Source: Rhizobium sp. CIAT894
Lineage (GTDB): Bacteria; Pseudomonadota; Alphaproteobacteria; Rhizobiales; Rhizobiaceae
DNA length: 64,000 bases
NCBI RefSeq assembly: GCF_000172795.2
Contig: NZ_CP020947.1
Span: forward strand, 3,872,501-3,936,500
Direction of reading: 5' to 3'
In this document: positions 898 through 60,839 of the stretch, piece after piece
Layout: every line of letters begins with the position of its first letter
Numbering within the stretch: the stretch's first letter is position 1
Made by a program: the position numbers and the translations under genes
The notes under the pieces: model-generated
What the model was told of the DNA's origin: nothing
Databases searched by the model: none
What the model saw: only the letters and a program-made list of their open reading frames with translations

Positions 898-1156
898 GCG
901 GCGAAAAAGGCAGGATCTGGAGAGGCGCAGGCTGTGTGGCTGCAAAGCGCCGGCAATTGCGCGCTCCGGATCGTGTACCCATCCATCTCAGCCAGGCGAC
1001 AAAATTCGACGCAGCCCACCAGCACTGAGGGGATCAAGCCGAAGATTCGCACGTTGATGTTCGCTTTGGCGGCACCAACAACGCAATCTCTATCGCAAGC
1101 GATCTGGAACAATTTCCCGGCTGCCGCGTATTCCAGCAAACGCAAAGGATGTTGCC

Positions 1157-1330
1157 ATGCTGAAATGGGCTCTGATATTTTTCGTCATTTCGATCATCGC
1201 CGGCTTCTTCGGTTTTTCCGGGGTCTCCGCGGCCACCGCCACCATCGCCCGCGTTCTCTTCGGCATCGCGCTGGTGATCTTCCTGATCTTCCTCGTCCTT
1301 GCATTGTTGGCCGGGCAGGCGATCTTGTGA
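1157..1330 (+). CDS. DUF1328 small membrane protein
   Basis: A 57-residue hydrophobic protein that starts [16 protein letters not shown] and has two predicted transmembrane helices (about residues 3-25 and 30-52) joined by a short Ala/Thr-rich turn. This is the layout of the DUF1328 (YtjA/UPF0391) family, whose members are about 55-60 residues long. An AAAGGA ribosome binding site lies about 8 bases before the ATG. It stands alone between the aldehyde dehydrogenase gene and a convergent lipoprotein gene. Family members are often stress-induced in alphaproteobacteria, but the biochemical role is unknown. The family call is firm. Confidence 0.8.
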
Positions 1331-1358
1331 GCGGAAACGCAGGTTCTTTGATACTCGC

Positions 1359-2051
1359 CTATTTCAACTCGGCCAGCAGGGCGTCGGCGCCTTTGCGGAC
1401 GCCCACCATGGAGGCATCCATCGCCGTGAAGCTCGCGCCGATATTCATCGCATTGGGATATTGCTTGGTCACGTATGACGACAGGAGGCGATTGCTCGCG
1501 GCATCGTAGATCTCTACGGCATAATTCACCGAACCGGTCATCGAGCCTTCGCGGCCGCGCACAGCTTGGACGGTGTTGTATAATCCGCCTGCGACATCGA
1601 TGCGTGTGACAGTCCCGAGAACCGCAGTCGTCGCCTTTGCGCCGGTCAGCGTCAGATGCAATCTGAGAGTGGCCGGAGCCGCCGTGCCGACGATCGCAAA
1701 GCGCGTCTTCAATTTTTCCGTGAACTGGTCCTGCATGTAGTCGGCCAGCAGGACCTTATCCTTTTCGGGGAATTTGCCGAACTGACTGTCGGAGCCTTTA
1801 TAGACTGTAACGGGATCGACGATGATCCTGGTGTATCGGCGCCAGTCGACATTCGTCTGATAGCGATAGGGCACGCGGCCGGTTTTATCAGCCGTATTCG
1901 GCTGAAGCTGCGATGCCGAAGCAAGTCCGGCATAAACCGTGGGGTCAGGGGTCGTGCAGGCGGCAACACTCAAGCAGGCGAAAAGCGCGGCACCGACGTT
2001 CAAATTTTTGATCAAGGATTGGGCTCCAGCTGTGGACATGCCGAACGGCAT
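1359..2051 (-). CDS. DUF3313 family lipoprotein
   Basis: A predicted secreted lipoprotein of about 230 residues. A basic N-region and hydrophobic stretch end in the lipobox LSVAAC, followed by a mature domain with the DUF3313 pattern of a Trp/Tyr segment then IIVDPV (NVDWRRYTRIIVDPV). The region after that resembles the conserved core in which an ionisable DKVLLADYMQDQF helix precedes a beta-rich C-terminus. The start is uncertain: ATG at 2051 or 2039 gives a normal signal peptide, while a longer frame reaches 2147 and would touch the kinase gene. No strong ribosome binding site decides it. It is downstream of, and on the same strand as, the kinase/regulator pair, so it may share their transcript. 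Function is unknown. Confidence 0.7.
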   Translation of the reverse strand: MPFGMSTAGAQSLIKNLNVGAALFACLSVAACTTPDPTVYAGLASASQLQPNTADKTGRVPYRYQTNVDWRRYTRIIVDPVTVYKGSDSQFGKFPEKDKVLLADYMQDQFTEKLKTRFAIVGTAAPATLRLHLTLTGAKATTAVLGTVTRIDVAGGLYNTVQAVRGREGSMTGSVNYAVEIYDAASNRLLSSYVTKQYPNAMNIGASFTAMDASMVGVRKGADALLAELK

Positions 2052-56519: not shown

Positions 56520-57572
56520 GTGACCGAACCGTCCCGGCCGCGACGCGGCGAAAGTCTCGATATCACCCATAAGCGCGGCAAGCCGACCTTGCGAACGATC
56601 GCCACGATCGCCGGCCTTGCGGTGACGACGGTGTCACGCGCGCTCGCCGATGCGCCGCAGATTTCGCTGGAGACCCGCCAGCGCGTGCGCCGTATCGCCG
56701 GCGAGATCGGCTATCTCCCCGACCGGGCTGCGCAGCGCCTGAAGACCGGCCGCACCAATGTCATTGCCATCCTGCTCGATTCGCACGAGGAAGTGGTCGG
56801 CTTCAGCACCTCGATCATGTACGGCATCGCCAAGGCATTGAAGGAGACCTCCTACCATCTCGTCGTCGCCCCGAACTTTCTGTCGACGACCGATGTCGAG
56901 GCCGTAGACTACATCATCCGCAACCATCTCGCCGACGGGTTGATCTTCACGCGGACGGAGCCGCTCGATGCCCGCGTCCGCCTGCTGCTCGAAACCGGCT
57001 TTCCATTCATCTGCCACGGCCGCACGGAATTTTCGACGCCCCACCCCTATGTCGACTACGACAATTTCACCTTTGCCTATGAGGCGACGCGCCGGCTGAT
57101 CGCCAAGAAACGCAGAAAAGTGGCGGTGATCCTGCCGCCCAAACGGCTGACCTTCTGCCAGCATATCCTGCACGGCTTCATGACGGCGGTGCGCGAGGCA
57201 GGCATTGCCTATGAGATCCCCGAAACGGTCGATCTCGATACGCCGGCGGATGTGCTGCGCGATTTCATCTGCAGCCGCGCCGCCGCTCCGGATGCGCCCG
57301 ATGGTTTCATCTGTCCCGGCGAGGTCTCTGCTCTCGCCGTCATCGGCGGCATGGGCGACGCCGGCCGGACACTGGCTGTCGATTACGATATCGTCGCCAA
57401 GGAAACCTCCCGCCTCCTCACCCAGTTGCAGCCGAAAGTCGACACGATCCATGAGGACCTGACGGCGGCGGGTGAGGATCTCGGCCGCATGCTGCTGCAG
57501 CGCATCAACAACCCTGACGCCGAGGGCCTGCATCTGCTGCTGCCGCCGCAGATCAATTTCCCGATCGGTTGA
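56520..57572 (+). CDS. LacI-family regulator of the GtsA-like operon
   Basis: 350 residues from GTG 56520. After a short basic leader, the helix-turn-helix reads TLRTIATIAGLAVTTVSRAL, and the hinge RQRVRRIAGEIGYLPDRAAQRLKTG (quoted as IGYLPDRAAQRLKTG) follows the LacI pattern. The ligand domain includes VDYDNFTFAYEATRRL and SALAVIGGMGDAG. The style, with IAILLDSHEEVVGF, is that of AglR-like sugar regulators. It is divergent from the binding-protein gene; two AACGTT sites lie between them. Repression relieved by the imported sugar is inferred. Confidence 0.92.
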   Translation: MTEPSRPRRGESLDITHKRGKPTLRTIATIAGLAVTTVSRALADAPQISLETRQRVRRIAGEIGYLPDRAAQRLKTGRTNVIAILLDSHEEVVGFSTSIMYGIAKALKETSYHLVVAPNFLSTTDVEAVDYIIRNHLADGLIFTRTEPLDARVRLLLETGFPFICHGRTEFSTPHPYVDYDNFTFAYEATRRLIAKKRRKVAVILPPKRLTFCQHILHGFMTAVREAGIAYEIPETVDLDTPADVLRDFICSRAAAPDAPDGFICPGEVSALAVIGGMGDAGRTLAVDYDIVAKETSRLLTQLQPKVDTIHEDLTAAGEDLGRMLLQRINNPDAEGLHLLLPPQINFPIG

Positions 57573-57641
57573 CCCCTCCGAAGGCTCGCGCCTTAAGCCT
57601 ATTCCCAACGCGCAGGTTTTGCCCTAGAAGCACGCCGTAAT

Positions 57642-57675
57642 CCGGTCGCAGCCCACCCGGTCAAAACAAGGGAAT
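57642..57675 (+). ncRNA. preQ1-I riboswitch over the queC ribosome binding site
   Basis: CCGG-TCGCAG-CCCA-CCCGG is followed by TCAAAACAAGGGA. The P1 stem pairs 57642-57645 with 57657-57660; the loop TCGCAG and the A-rich tail ending AAAACAAGG match the preQ1 class I aptamer (Thermoanaerobacter tengcongensis type). The AAGGGA that forms part of the pseudoknot is also the queC ribosome binding site, 8 bases from ATG 57683. Binding of preQ1 should hide it and repress queCDE translation. Confidence 0.85.
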
Positions 57676-57682
57676 CCAAAAT

Positions 57683-58393
57683 ATGAAGATCATCGTCGTC
57701 TGCTCTGGCGGACTCGACTCCGTTTCGCTTGCCCATAAGATAGCAGCGGAAGAACAGCTTATCGGCCTCGTCTCCTTCGACTACGGCCAACGGCATCGCA
57801 AGGAACTCGATTTCGCCGACAAATGTGCCGCACGCCTTGCCGTTCCCCACCATATCATCGACATATCAGCCATCGGCGGCCATCTCAGCGGATCGGCGCT
57901 GACCGACAATGTCGAGGTCCCGGACGGCCACTACGCCGAAGAGACCATGAAGGCCACCGTCGTGCCGAACCGCAATGCCATCATGCTGGCAATCGCCTTC
58001 GGCCTGGCGGCTGCCCAGAAAGCCGATGCCGTTGCCGTCGCCGTGCATGGCGGCGACCACTTCATTTACCCGGACTGCCGTCCGGGCTTCATCGACGCCT
58101 TCCAGCGCATGCAGGACGAAGCGCTGGATGGTTATGCGAGCGTCAGACTGCTTGCACCCTATGTGGAGGTGTCGAAAGCAGCGATCGTGATCGACGGCGA
58201 AAAACATGCGACGCCGTTTGCGGAAACATGGTCCTGCTACAAGGGCGGCAGGCTCCATTGCGGACGCTGCGGCACCTGCGTCGAACGCCGCGAGGCCTTC
58301 CATCTTGCCGGCGTCCCCGATCCCACCGAATACGAAGACCCGGATTTCTGGAAGGCGGCGGTGTCGCAATATTCGGCCGCGGAGGTGCGTTGA
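57683..58393 (+). CDS. queC: 7-cyano-7-deazaguanine (preQ0) synthase
   Basis: 236 residues. The N-terminal ATP-PPase loop is CSGGLDS (residues 7-13), and the zinc-binding Cys cluster is in CGRCGTC near residue 190, with a further Cys upstream in WSCYKGG. It converts 7-carboxy-7-deazaguanine to preQ0 with ATP and ammonia, in the queuosine tRNA pathway. It is the first gene of queCDE, controlled at translation by the preQ1-I aptamer. Its stop overlaps the queD start by one base. Confidence 0.96.
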   Translation: MKIIVVCSGGLDSVSLAHKIAAEEQLIGLVSFDYGQRHRKELDFADKCAARLAVPHHIIDISAIGGHLSGSALTDNVEVPDGHYAEETMKATVVPNRNAIMLAIAFGLAAAQKADAVAVAVHGGDHFIYPDCRPGFIDAFQRMQDEALDGYASVRLLAPYVEVSKAAIVIDGEKHATPFAETWSCYKGGRLHCGRCGTCVERREAFHLAGVPDPTEYEDPDFWKAAVSQYSAAEVR

Positions 58394-58749
58394 TGTACCG
58401 CATCACCAAGGAGTTTCATCTTTCCGCTTCGCACCAGCTGGATCATCTGCCGGCCGACCATCAATGCGCCCGGCTCCACGGTCATAACTATATCGTGGTC
58501 GTCGAGCTCGCGGCCGAAAACCTGAACGATGACGGCTTCGTGCGCGACTATCACGACCTCTCGCCGCTCAAGCGCTATATCGACGAGGCGCTCGATCACC
58601 GGCACCTGAACGAGGTCTTCGGCCATTCGAAAGTCACCTCCGAATTCCTGGCAAGGCACTTTTACGACTGGTGCAAGCAGCGCTTTCCCGAGACGTCGTC
58701 CGTCCGCGTCAGCGAGACGCCGAAGACCTGGGCGGAGTACCGGCCATGA
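58393..58749 (+). CDS. queD: 6-carboxy-5,6,7,8-tetrahydropterin synthase
   Basis: 118 residues. Zinc His ligands are in FHLSASHQL and HGHNY; the catalytic Cys is in [12 protein letters not shown]. The C-terminal [14 protein letters not shown]lu completes the site. It makes 6-carboxytetrahydropterin from 7,8-dihydroneopterin triphosphate, the first dedicated step of deazaguanine synthesis. It overlaps queC by 1 base and queE by 4 bases (ATGA), so the three are coupled. Confidence 0.96.
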
Positions 58750-59474
58750 GCGGAGAGACCATTCGCGTCAGCGAGATCTTCGGCCCCACCATCCAGGGCG
58801 AAGGCGCTCTGATCGGGCTGCCGACGGTATTCGTCAGGACGGGCGGCTGCGACTATCGCTGTTCCTGGTGTGACAGCCTCCACGCGGTCGACAGCGCATA
58901 CCGGGATCAATGGATTCCGATGGCGGTCGATGCGATCTGGCAGGAGGTGACCAAGCTGTCCGGCGGCAGGCCGATGACGGTTTCCCTTTCCGGAGGCAAT
59001 CCGGCGATCCAGCCCCTGGGACCGCTGATCGAGCTCGGCCATTCCCAAGGCTACCGCTTTGCGTTGGAAACGCAGGGAAGTGTGGCCCGGAACTGGTTTC
59101 GCGACCTCGACATGCTGGTCTTGAGCCCCAAGCCGCCGTCAAGTGGAATGCTGACCGATTGGGGTGAGATCGACAATTGTCTTCGGCTGACCGCCGGCGG
59201 GCCGGAGATCGCATTGAAAATCGTCGTCTTCGACGATGCCGACTATGCCTTTGCGCGAGAGGTGGGCCAGCGCTACCCCTATATTCCCCTGTACCTTCAG
59301 CCGGGCAACCACACGCCGCCGCCCCCCGATGACGACGACGCCCGCATCGATATCGACGGCGTGATGGATCGCATGCACTGGCTCGTCGAGAAGGTGACGG
59401 CCGACGGATGGTTTGCGCCACGCGTGCTGCCGCAACTGCACGTGCTGCTGTGGGGAAACAAGCGCGGCGTCTGA
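58746..59474 (+). CDS. queE: 7-carboxy-7-deazaguanine synthase (radical SAM)
   Basis: 242 residues. The [4Fe-4S] SAM motif is CDYRCSWC (C-x3-C-x2-C), and the family's [13 protein letters not shown]-terminus and [13 protein letters not shown]-binding motif are present. It contracts the pterin ring to give 7-carboxy-7-deazaguanine, the substrate of QueC. The ATGA overlap with queD fixes the start at 58746. queF and the tRNA transglycosylase gene are not in the window. A repeat that forms a terminator-like stem follows the stop. Confidence 0.96.
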
Positions 59475-59486
59475 CGCTGTCTGAGC

Positions 59487-59610
59487 CTAAAGCGCGTCGC
59501 GATCTTTCAGATTCGCTCCTCGCGCTTTAGCTCTTTGTTTTTACACATGTCGTTGCGGCAAAAGCGCTTCGGGCTTTGCCTGGGAAAACCGCGGCACACT
59601 TTTGCGCAAC
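59487..59610 (+). repeat. Rhizobial palindromic intergenic element, copy B, with terminator-like stem
   Basis: CTAAAGCGCG (59487-59496) and CGCGCTTTAG (59521-59530) are exact inverted arms, followed by CTCTTTGTTTTT, so the element ends the queCDE transcript. A second part starts CATGTCGTTGCGGC and closes near TTTTGCGCAACATG. Copy A at 49309-49402 is the same element reversed. Confidence 0.65.
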
Positions 59611-59615
59611 ATGTT

Positions 59616-60839
59616 CTAACGCTCCGGAAAAGCGAAGACATCGACAGGCTCTCCGAGCCCGCGCAGCGGGAAGGTACCCAGGCTGTCCATGTCCTTGGCG
59701 CAGTCCGCCATTTCGACGAAGGCCCGCGACAAGAGCACCGGACGCTTGACCTCTTTGGTCAGGCTTTCCAGCCGCGAGGCGACATTGACCGCCGGGCCGA
59801 TGACGGTGAAATCCAGCCGCCGGCGCGAGCCGATATTGCCGTACATGACGTCGCCGACATGCACGCCGACGCCGTAACGCAGCGGCTCGCGCCCCATGCG
59901 CAGATGCTGCTCGTTCAACTCGGCCATCGACGCCTGCCCTTCGCGGATCGCCTGCAGCAGATCGAGGCAGGCGGTTTCCTTGGTCAGCGGGAAAATCGCC
60001 AGCAATCCGTCGCCCATGAATTTGAGGATCTCGCCGCCATAGCGCTCGATCGGATCCGACATTGCGTCGAAATAGTCATTGAGCAGGTGGATGACATCGT
60101 CGCGCGGCCAGAGATCGGAAATCGCCGTAAAGTCGCGCAGGTCGCAGATCATGATCGCCGCGCCGACAGTGGCGCCGCTGCCGCGCGTCGTCACGCCCGA
60201 CAGGATCTGCTCGCTCGCATGCGGCCCGACATAGGTCTGCAGCAGCGTGCGCGCCATGATGTTCTTCAGCCTGATTTCGCTGACGAGGGTCAGTGCCGGC
60301 AGGAGATCGCGCAGGAAATCGACATGCTCGCGCTCGAAGCCGCCCGGCCGGCTGGTGGAAAATGTCACGACATGCCGCTTGCCGAGGGTGTGCTCGAGCG
60401 GCCAGGCGATATATTCGGTCAAGCCGTCGTCATGCAGGTCCTGATAGAATGAATCCAAGTCGCCGACGGCTGCGCCTTCCAGCTGCCTGCGCACCTCCTC
60501 CGCGCCCTGATGGATCGCGTTGACAGGACTGTTCAGGAACTCCGGCGTGTTTTCGACGCCATAGGCGAATGTATCGATCTTCGCTTCCGCCAGTCCCTCC
60601 TTCCAGAGAAGGCGAGCACCTATCCATTGCGGGTGGTTCACCCTGAAATGCAGCGTCGCCCGCGCCACCGGCACGCCGGCCGCCAGCAGCTTCCCACACA
60701 TGTCCACCAGGATATTGTCGATGAAACGCTCGCCCCGCGTCTCGTTCACCAGCCAGTCGAGAATCCGTCTCCGGCGAATCGGCCAGACGCCTTCGTCCGC
60801 CTCGACTGAGGTCCCGACCTTGTTCAAAAAAGACGACAT
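59616..60839 (-). CDS. Class III adenylate/guanylate cyclase, paralogue
   Basis: 407 residues. The cyclase homology domain is about 205-395, with Asp motifs MICDLRDFT and KFMGDGLLAIFP, dimer segment GVGVHVGDVMYGNIGS and NVASRLESLTKEV. The N-terminal region begins with VWPIRRRRILDWLVNE and is a sensor-like domain without membrane helices. Same plan as the cyclase at 43632, but the sensor sequences are clearly different. It stands alone between the queE repeat and nrdF. Both metal Asp residues are intact, so it is expected to be active. Confidence 0.9.
   Translation of the reverse strand: MSSFLNKVGTSVEADEGVWPIRRRRILDWLVNETRGERFIDNILVDMCGKLLAAGVPVARATLHFRVNHPQWIGARLLWKEGLAEAKIDTFAYGVENTPEFLNSPVNAIHQGAEEVRRQLEGAAVGDLDSFYQDLHDDGLTEYIAWPLEHTLGKRHVVTFSTSRPGGFEREHVDFLRDLLPALTLVSEIRLKNIMARTLLQTYVGPHASEQILSGVTTRGSGATVGAAIMICDLRDFTAISDLWPRDDVIHLLNDYFDAMSDPIERYGGEILKFMGDGLLAIFPLTKETACLDLLQAIREGQASMAELNEQHLRMGREPLRYGVGVHVGDVMYGNIGSRRRLDFTVIGPAVNVASRLESLTKEVKRPVLLSRAFVEMADCAKDMDSLGTFPLRGLGEPVDVFAFPER

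Follow-up and report, generated by a model that had tools for sequence, protein, structure and literature searches.

A candidate class I, type II preQ1 riboswitch in the queCDE leader of Rhizobium sp. CIAT894 and its alphaproteobacterial relatives

Class I preQ1 switches and the queC leader

The types into which class I preQ1 (preQ1-I) riboswitches are divided were reportedly defined by McCown et al. in 2014. Type II aptamers are marked by a G5-C16 floor, a C7+-G11-C30 triple over the ligand and the letters AC before the 3′ strand of helix P1; in types I and III the P1 5′ strand is flanked by UU, and type II, represented by fewer sequences than type I, is present in Pseudomonadota (PMC11625349). 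The aptamer of T. tengcongensis (Tte), whose sequence is CUGGGUCGCAGUAACCCCAGUUAACAAAACAAGGG in the available part of PMC10639078, has two of its Shine-Dalgarno (SD) nucleotides buried (PMC11625349).

The window analysed here is a stretch of 64,000 nucleotides from Rhizobium sp. CIAT894 (contig NZ_CP020947.1, positions 3,872,501 to 3,936,500). A leader of 110 nt separates the ORF of a LacI-type regulator, which ends at 57572, from the queC ATG at 57683, just as an earlier note on this DNA had measured it. The gene queC (57683..58393, plus strand; 7-cyano-7-deazaguanine (preQ0) synthase, TIGR00364, 179.1 bits, cut-off 150.3) heads the series queC-queD-queE and is followed on the same strand by queD (58393..58749; 6-carboxytetrahydropterin synthase, TIGR03367, 94 bits, cut-off 89.25) and queE (58746..59474; 7-carboxy-7-deazaguanine synthase, TIGR03365, 387.6 bits, cut-off 206.1), so that each exceeds its own NCBIfam cut-off. 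The gene overlaps of 1 and 4 bases that the note reported can both be read in the sequence, where the queD ATG begins at 58393, the last base of queC, and the queE ATG at 58746, ahead of the end of queD at 58749. The intergenic stretch 3′ of queE contains an inverted repeat (59487-59620; AAAGCGCG ... CGCGCTTTA) that has the look of a repeated element.

The whole leader element, CCGG UCGCAGCCCAC CCGG UCAAAA CAAGGG, occupies 57642-57672 of the plus strand. The two strands of P1, both CCGG, lie at 57642..57645 (5′) and 57657..57660 (3′) and are assigned from their letters and from covariation. Between them the loop UCGCAGCCCAC (57646..57656) is made up of TCGCAG (57646-57651), corresponding to bases U6, C7, G8, C9, A10 and G11 in T. 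tengcongensis numbering, and CCCAC (57652-57656), that is, a C-rich L2 and the specificity C at 57656. The stretch TCAAAACAAGGG (57661-57672) comprises a 6-nt L3, UCAAAA (57661..57666; from letters and leader comparison), and the 3′ tail CAAGGG (57667..57672; from letters, and kept in relatives), in which C30, the partner of G11, is followed by the queC SD sequence AAGG(G). The order of motifs given in the earlier note agrees with these letters except in its 3′ stem strand, which it wrote as “CCCGG”: the strand is CCGG, and the C that precedes it, C57656, is the specificity base, which pairs with preQ1 in known aptamers. The assignment of the queC ribosome binding site to the tail of the motif holds, with AAGG(G) at 57668-57672 and 11 nt separating AAGG from the ATG; the candidate aptamer (57642-57671) accordingly stops 11 nt short of queC (57683).

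The loop is placed by its letters and by identity with the Tte sequence in the available part of PMC10639078. Type II letters are found at the floor (57645/57657), at the triple (57647/57651/57667) and at A57655 C57656 before the P1 3′ strand. In type I that strand is preceded by UC and the 5′ strand is followed by UU, places at which the window has AC and UC, and type III has UU flanking the P1 5′ strand, where the window has UC (57646-57647). The locus also presents traits of the Rfam family RF00522 (PreQ1), namely a P1 helix, an A-rich L3 followed by a conserved tail, and a position before genes of the queuosine pathway (queC, queD, queE). Since the core word GGTCGCAGCCNACC has a single exact match in the window and a single one in the 6.66-Mb genome, both being the queC leader, the motif appears to be more than chance; one-base variants of the word occur at 31 other places in the genome. 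Our own model, R1, finds one place in a genome run at E ≤ 0.1 in which 18 candidates were scored. The genome encodes QueF, which makes preQ1, elsewhere (148.8 bits, cut-off 86.9), and also a YhhQ-type transporter (93.9 bits joined, cut-off 50.95), and R1 has no match in the loci around these two genes.

A promoter-like pair lies upstream on the same strand, with TTCCCA as the -35 element (57602..57607; TTCACA in many relatives) and, after a 17-nt spacer, TAGAAG as the -10 element (57625..57630; from leader comparison), which ends 11 nt 5′ of the aptamer. Pairs scoring at least 9 of 12 against TTCACA/TAGAAG occur in 56 of 128 leaders and in 1.3% of mononucleotide shuffles, an enrichment that is partly circular because the consensus was drawn from the same leaders, and a scan of the queC leader region for E. 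coli-type promoters found none. Transcription would start at about 57637, just upstream of the aptamer, and the mRNA leader may therefore be only some 45 nt long, with little in it beyond the aptamer, a length that would make it convenient for testing a minimal translational switch.

Rfam scores and conservation across QueC loci

At the gathering threshold, Rfam has no match anywhere in the window. Under permissive settings (4227 families, 601 bases) RF00522 aligns over its full model to 57637-57675 with 14.2 bits (cut-off 39) and E 4.3, so the search with the Rfam preQ1 class I model that the earlier note had proposed fails in the strict sense. This is the top bit score among four permissive matches, and since a snoRNA model alongside it has a lower E (3.5), the RF00522 match at the queC leader is by itself at chance level; for a single family, its E would be about 0.001 by our own arithmetic (4.3/4227). 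In the whole-genome search at E ≤ 10, with 150 of 311 candidates scored, the queC leader is absent from the RF00522 matches, and the sole match (G000:C1:92667) is not a queC leader. None of 100 related genomes has a match above the cut-off, and 38 have matches at E ≤ 10; queC leaders from the same genus account for the three top matches (26.6 bits) but not for the fourth (L005), and among the 30 loci that were read from these matches, 7 have the motif before queC. Reading found no motif at L001, L005, L008-L010, L016, L017 and L020. For 14 related leaders chosen by hand, RF00522 is the sole family at E ≤ 1, found at 11 of them with 25.6-30.6 bits, and the other three (L185, L189 and L248) have no RF00522 match. 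A gathering threshold is a score set by curators and not a structural feature, and we therefore take the missed cut-off as a caution, not as an exclusion.

A sample drawn by protein only, using QueC peptide patterns on a named genome collection, yielded at least 584 relatives, the best 80 of which come from Rhizobium, Sinorhizobium/Ensifer, Agrobacterium, Neorhizobium, Mesorhizobium, Faunimonas and a few Rhodobacterales. The leaders of these best 80, which were printed and read ahead of any pattern counting, all contain GGTCGCAGCC[CT]ACCC followed by AAAACA(A)GG; 7-12 nt separate the last G from the start codon, and 60 of the 80 are identical to the window over 30 nt. DNA similar to the leader plus queC (window 57620-58390) is also present on 137 plasmid records, 79 of them from Sinorhizobium and 133 with at least 80% query cover, so the operon is often on megaplasmids.

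In a draw from the whole class, QueC scores above its cut-off in 146 of 385 genomes, and 70 class-draw loci were read, 30 picked by program and 40 by hand. Scored against the window's QueC, 16 of these loci reach at least 243 bits and 54 have at most 138; the aptamer is present in 8 of the 16 close loci and absent from 7, the remaining one being cut off, and it is found in none of the 54 distant leaders (one of which, at L171, is only 11 nt long). Across these 70 loci (L146-L215), alphaproteobacterial QueC forms two separate groups, and the candidate riboswitch is linked to just one of them. A draw of 151 genomes from the window's own family has a close QueC (E ≤ 1e-60) in 31, with the aptamer in 26 of the 30 loci read, once with an insert in L3; in family f177 a close QueC occurs in 28 of 80 genomes and the aptamer in all 28, three times with an L3 insert. 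The phylum draw has a close QueC in 21 of 299 genomes, and the 20 places read comprise 9 with the aptamer, 1 doubtful form and 10 with none; these last 10 are the relatives from other classes (L260-L269), which the limit adopted for the subfamily, 230 tblastn bits, leaves out.

Pooled at that limit, the subfamily contains 148 distinct leaders including the window's, of which 132 are short-form, 4 have an L3 insert and 12 lack the aptamer (L176-L182, L192, where a contig end truncates the leader, L236, L238, L250 and L251). The aptamer is thus present in 136 of 148 distinct leaders of this subfamily and in 0 of 54 of the other, a count in which conservation of the core is partly built in because the counting pattern demands the core letters. 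Relatives of queD and queE occupy the same locus in 124 of 137 aptamer-bearing loci as against 1 of 5 without it (loci above 3.3 kb, some places having been fetched twice). In a protein database search that scored the 8000 candidates with the most shared words, the named organisms among the 120 matches listed are rhizobial or near.

These counts were taken from QueC protein matches because the R1 searches of class and phylum, with just 18-24 candidates scored per genome, are no fair census. R1 has matches in 27 of 385 genomes of the class, and the 27 places read are 8 queC leaders with the motif (L119-L124, L126 and L131), 1 queDE leader (L127) and 18 that are neither; in the phylum it has matches in 10 of 299 genomes, nine of which are queC leaders (L119, L122 and L216-L222). 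L223, an R1 match in another class, was rejected, as it lies opposite a long ORF and lacks AC. So were L148, L174 and L198, where a loose pattern had called a motif that neither the eye nor R1 finds, and L169 and L191, weak R1 matches in the other QueC group that lie outside the queC leader on its strand. A possible, strongly diverged aptamer, CCTGTCGTAGCACCAGGTTAAAAACACG, stands before a queCDE operon at L259:1457-1486 (plus strand; the same place as L182, fetched twice), has 8.5 bits with R1 and was left uncounted.

Helix P1, the tail and the L3 inserts

P1 was examined in an alignment of 51 distinct rows, made up of 47 rows picked by hand from 62 distinct short aptamers (near repeats dropped) and the stems of four insert forms. 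It is paired in 95.3% of cells, with a covariation of 0.249; shuffles average 0.081, none of 500 reaching the observed value, and slid versions give at most 0.056. Both sides change at three of the five pairs, a count that 10 of 500 shuffles match. The outermost pair takes five standard types and is unpaired in 12 rows, the window having U opposite U; the next-to-outermost takes five types with no row unpaired, the third takes two, and the inner two GC pairs are invariant. Across 30 distinct stem-loop types, all have pair 4 formed (shuffle mean 23.0, 0/2000) and 23 have pair 5 formed (shuffle mean 15.9, 0/2000), and pair 3, also paired in 30 of 30, is weak on its own (shuffle mean 28.1, 73/2000). 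The alignment of leaders across relatives that the earlier note had called for therefore has P1 kept through compensatory pairs and the tail present in 80 of 80 protein-chosen leaders, and this comparison strongly supports its reading of a preQ1-I-like leader upstream of queCDE.

The bases of the predicted helix P2 hardly vary and so give no covariation, the partner letters in loop and tail being both present and near-invariant. An L3 of 6 nt is the commonest (99 of 132 short-form leaders), and the tail reads ACAAGG in 130 and ACAGG in 2 of the 132, the pattern having required one or the other. A plain fold of the window leader, made with a program that does not handle pseudoknots, does not contain P1 (−4.9 kcal/mol, z +1.35, 191 of 200 shuffles as good or better).

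Four preQ1-I-like leaders have an insert in L3 with the SD tail intact after it: L247:2203-2274 (minus strand), L285:1419-1492 (plus), L293:1349-1490 (plus) and L295:2192-2338 (minus). In that order, the distance from the stem to AAAACAAGG is 42, 44, 111 and 115 nt, with both halves kept, and the predicted folds of the inserts have −12.4, −10.5, −37.8 and −30.1 kcal/mol; the whole leader of L293, the only insert form with a shuffle control, has z −4.6 (0 of 200). That stem and tail are both kept despite inserts of 42-115 nt argues that the tail belongs to the stem-loop.

In genome G379 (family f108), R1 finds an aptamer-like leader, CCGGUCGUAGUCCCACCCGGUCAAAACAGG, with 27.2 bits at L127 (region 939-1532, minus strand), with U in place of C9, and RF00522 has no match to this leader at E ≤ 10. 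A 10-codon frame begins seven bases past the GGA of the tail and overlaps, by one base of its TGA, the ATG of the next gene, which is QueD-like (55.4 bits, short of the 89.25 cut-off) and is followed by QueE (337.9 bits, cut-off 206.1); the QueC above cut-off in this genome sits on another contig. This one case suggests that the leader stays with the pathway genes in the absence of queC.

Tentatively, and with slightly more doubt than belief, we suggest that the alphaproteobacteria have a separate type II preQ1-I branch, tied to one QueC subfamily plus queDE and below the Rfam cut-off where tested, in several lineages of which a folded insert of 40-115 nt opens L3. If this is true, the insert forms would represent a class I aptamer split in two, with a stem delivering the SD-bearing tail, an architecture that was not found in the literature searched, including the available part of the review PMC11625349. 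They are a modest variant, and would offer a test of how much of the known fold can be dispensed with.

Proposed mechanism and comparison with known switches

On the strength of these comparisons we consider it highly probable that the queCDE leader carries a T. tengcongensis-like preQ1 riboswitch of class I, type II, in which preQ1 would close the pseudoknot over the SD sequence and lower translation. The leader RNA very probably senses a queuosine precursor, its predicted ligand, and the switch probably acts on translation. The comparisons show identity of the core letters, P1 by covariation, linkage to que genes and a tail kept even at a distance; the ligand, the P2 contacts, repression and translational coupling we infer. 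The aptamer would fill nearly all of the queCDE mRNA leader. In the ligand-free state, P1 and the tail would be loosely associated and the ribosome could read AAGG(G) (57668-57672). Plentiful preQ1 would bind under the G11-C30 step, pair with C57656 and form helix P2 by locking tail bases C57667 to G57671 into the UCGCAG loop, hiding part of the SD sequence and so lowering queC translation; translation of queD and queE would fall too by translational coupling, and the outcome would be end-product feedback on the supply of preQ0 and preQ1.

The same fold might serve preQ0, the direct product of QueC, as its ligand in the cell as much as preQ1 or more, which would place the feedback before QueF. 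The product of queCDE is indeed preQ0 and not preQ1, and in the available part of PMC10622847 the Tte aptamer binds preQ0 (Kd 35 nM) 17-fold more weakly than preQ1; the core letters of the window, however, equal those of Tte, which prefers preQ1, and we regard this role for preQ0 as unlikely, if worth keeping in mind. The leader might also hold a conserved pseudoknot whose partner is a protein or some other small molecule and which is a preQ1 aptamer by resemblance only; this would suit both the near-invariant core and the sub-threshold Rfam score, but it is very improbable given that the match falls on the letters of the aptamer's pocket and that the downstream genes are those of the preQ0 pathway.

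As to the step controlled, transcription is the target of certain type II preQ1-I switches, the one in B. subtilis among them (available part of PMC11625349), and termination or pausing could be the mechanism here instead of translation; against this, a terminator-like site was looked for in 57540-57760 and none was found, and AAGG lies within the aptamer, 11 nt 5′ of the ATG, so that we judge control of transcription distinctly unlikely. Chance, or a mere conserved ribosome binding site, would sit well with the Rfam E of 4.3 and is scarcely credible for 30 letters conserved across families with compensatory changes in P1.

Queuosine genes matter to rhizobial symbiosis. In the available part of PMC3568095, S. 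meliloti queC, queF and tgt mutants have a strong nitrogen-fixation defect, and a queC (exsB) mutant is cited as overproducing succinoglycan. If the leaders described here are preQ1 switches, as we favour, many rhizobia, agrobacteria and some Rhodobacterales would exert direct metabolite feedback on precursor supply, and annotation at the Rfam threshold would miss it.

The queCDE leader adds one more example to a kind of switch already known and does not found a new one. The novelty lies in the extent, namely a sub-threshold alphaproteobacterial branch, a few L3-insert members and one leader retained before queDE, barring rhizobial rows in McCown et al. 2014. The window shares GGUCGCAG and CAAAACAAGGG with the Tte aptamer (RF00522, type II), in which both are identical in the available part of PMC10639078, and the two have in common AC before the P1 3′ strand and an SD sequence in the tail. 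They differ in the loop (10 nt in Tte, 11 nt in the window), P1 (5 pairs against 4, CCGG/CCGG), L2 (UAA against CCCA, or CCUA in the window's relatives) and L3 (9 nt against 6 nt), and in the genes served, since the SD-burying type II switches in the available part of PMC11625349 are tied to queT, whereas the window's switch stands before queCDE. The type III switch of the E. coli yhhQ leader is likewise from Pseudomonadota and resembles the window in its pyrimidine-rich loop, its AAGG tail and AC at the specificity base (PMC11625349), but has UU beside the P1 5′ strand where the window has UC, and yhhQ in place of queC. The B. subtilis queCDEF switch is like the window's in both pathway genes and aptamer subtype, and differs in the step it controls, which in the available part of PMC11625349 is transcription, by way of a terminator.
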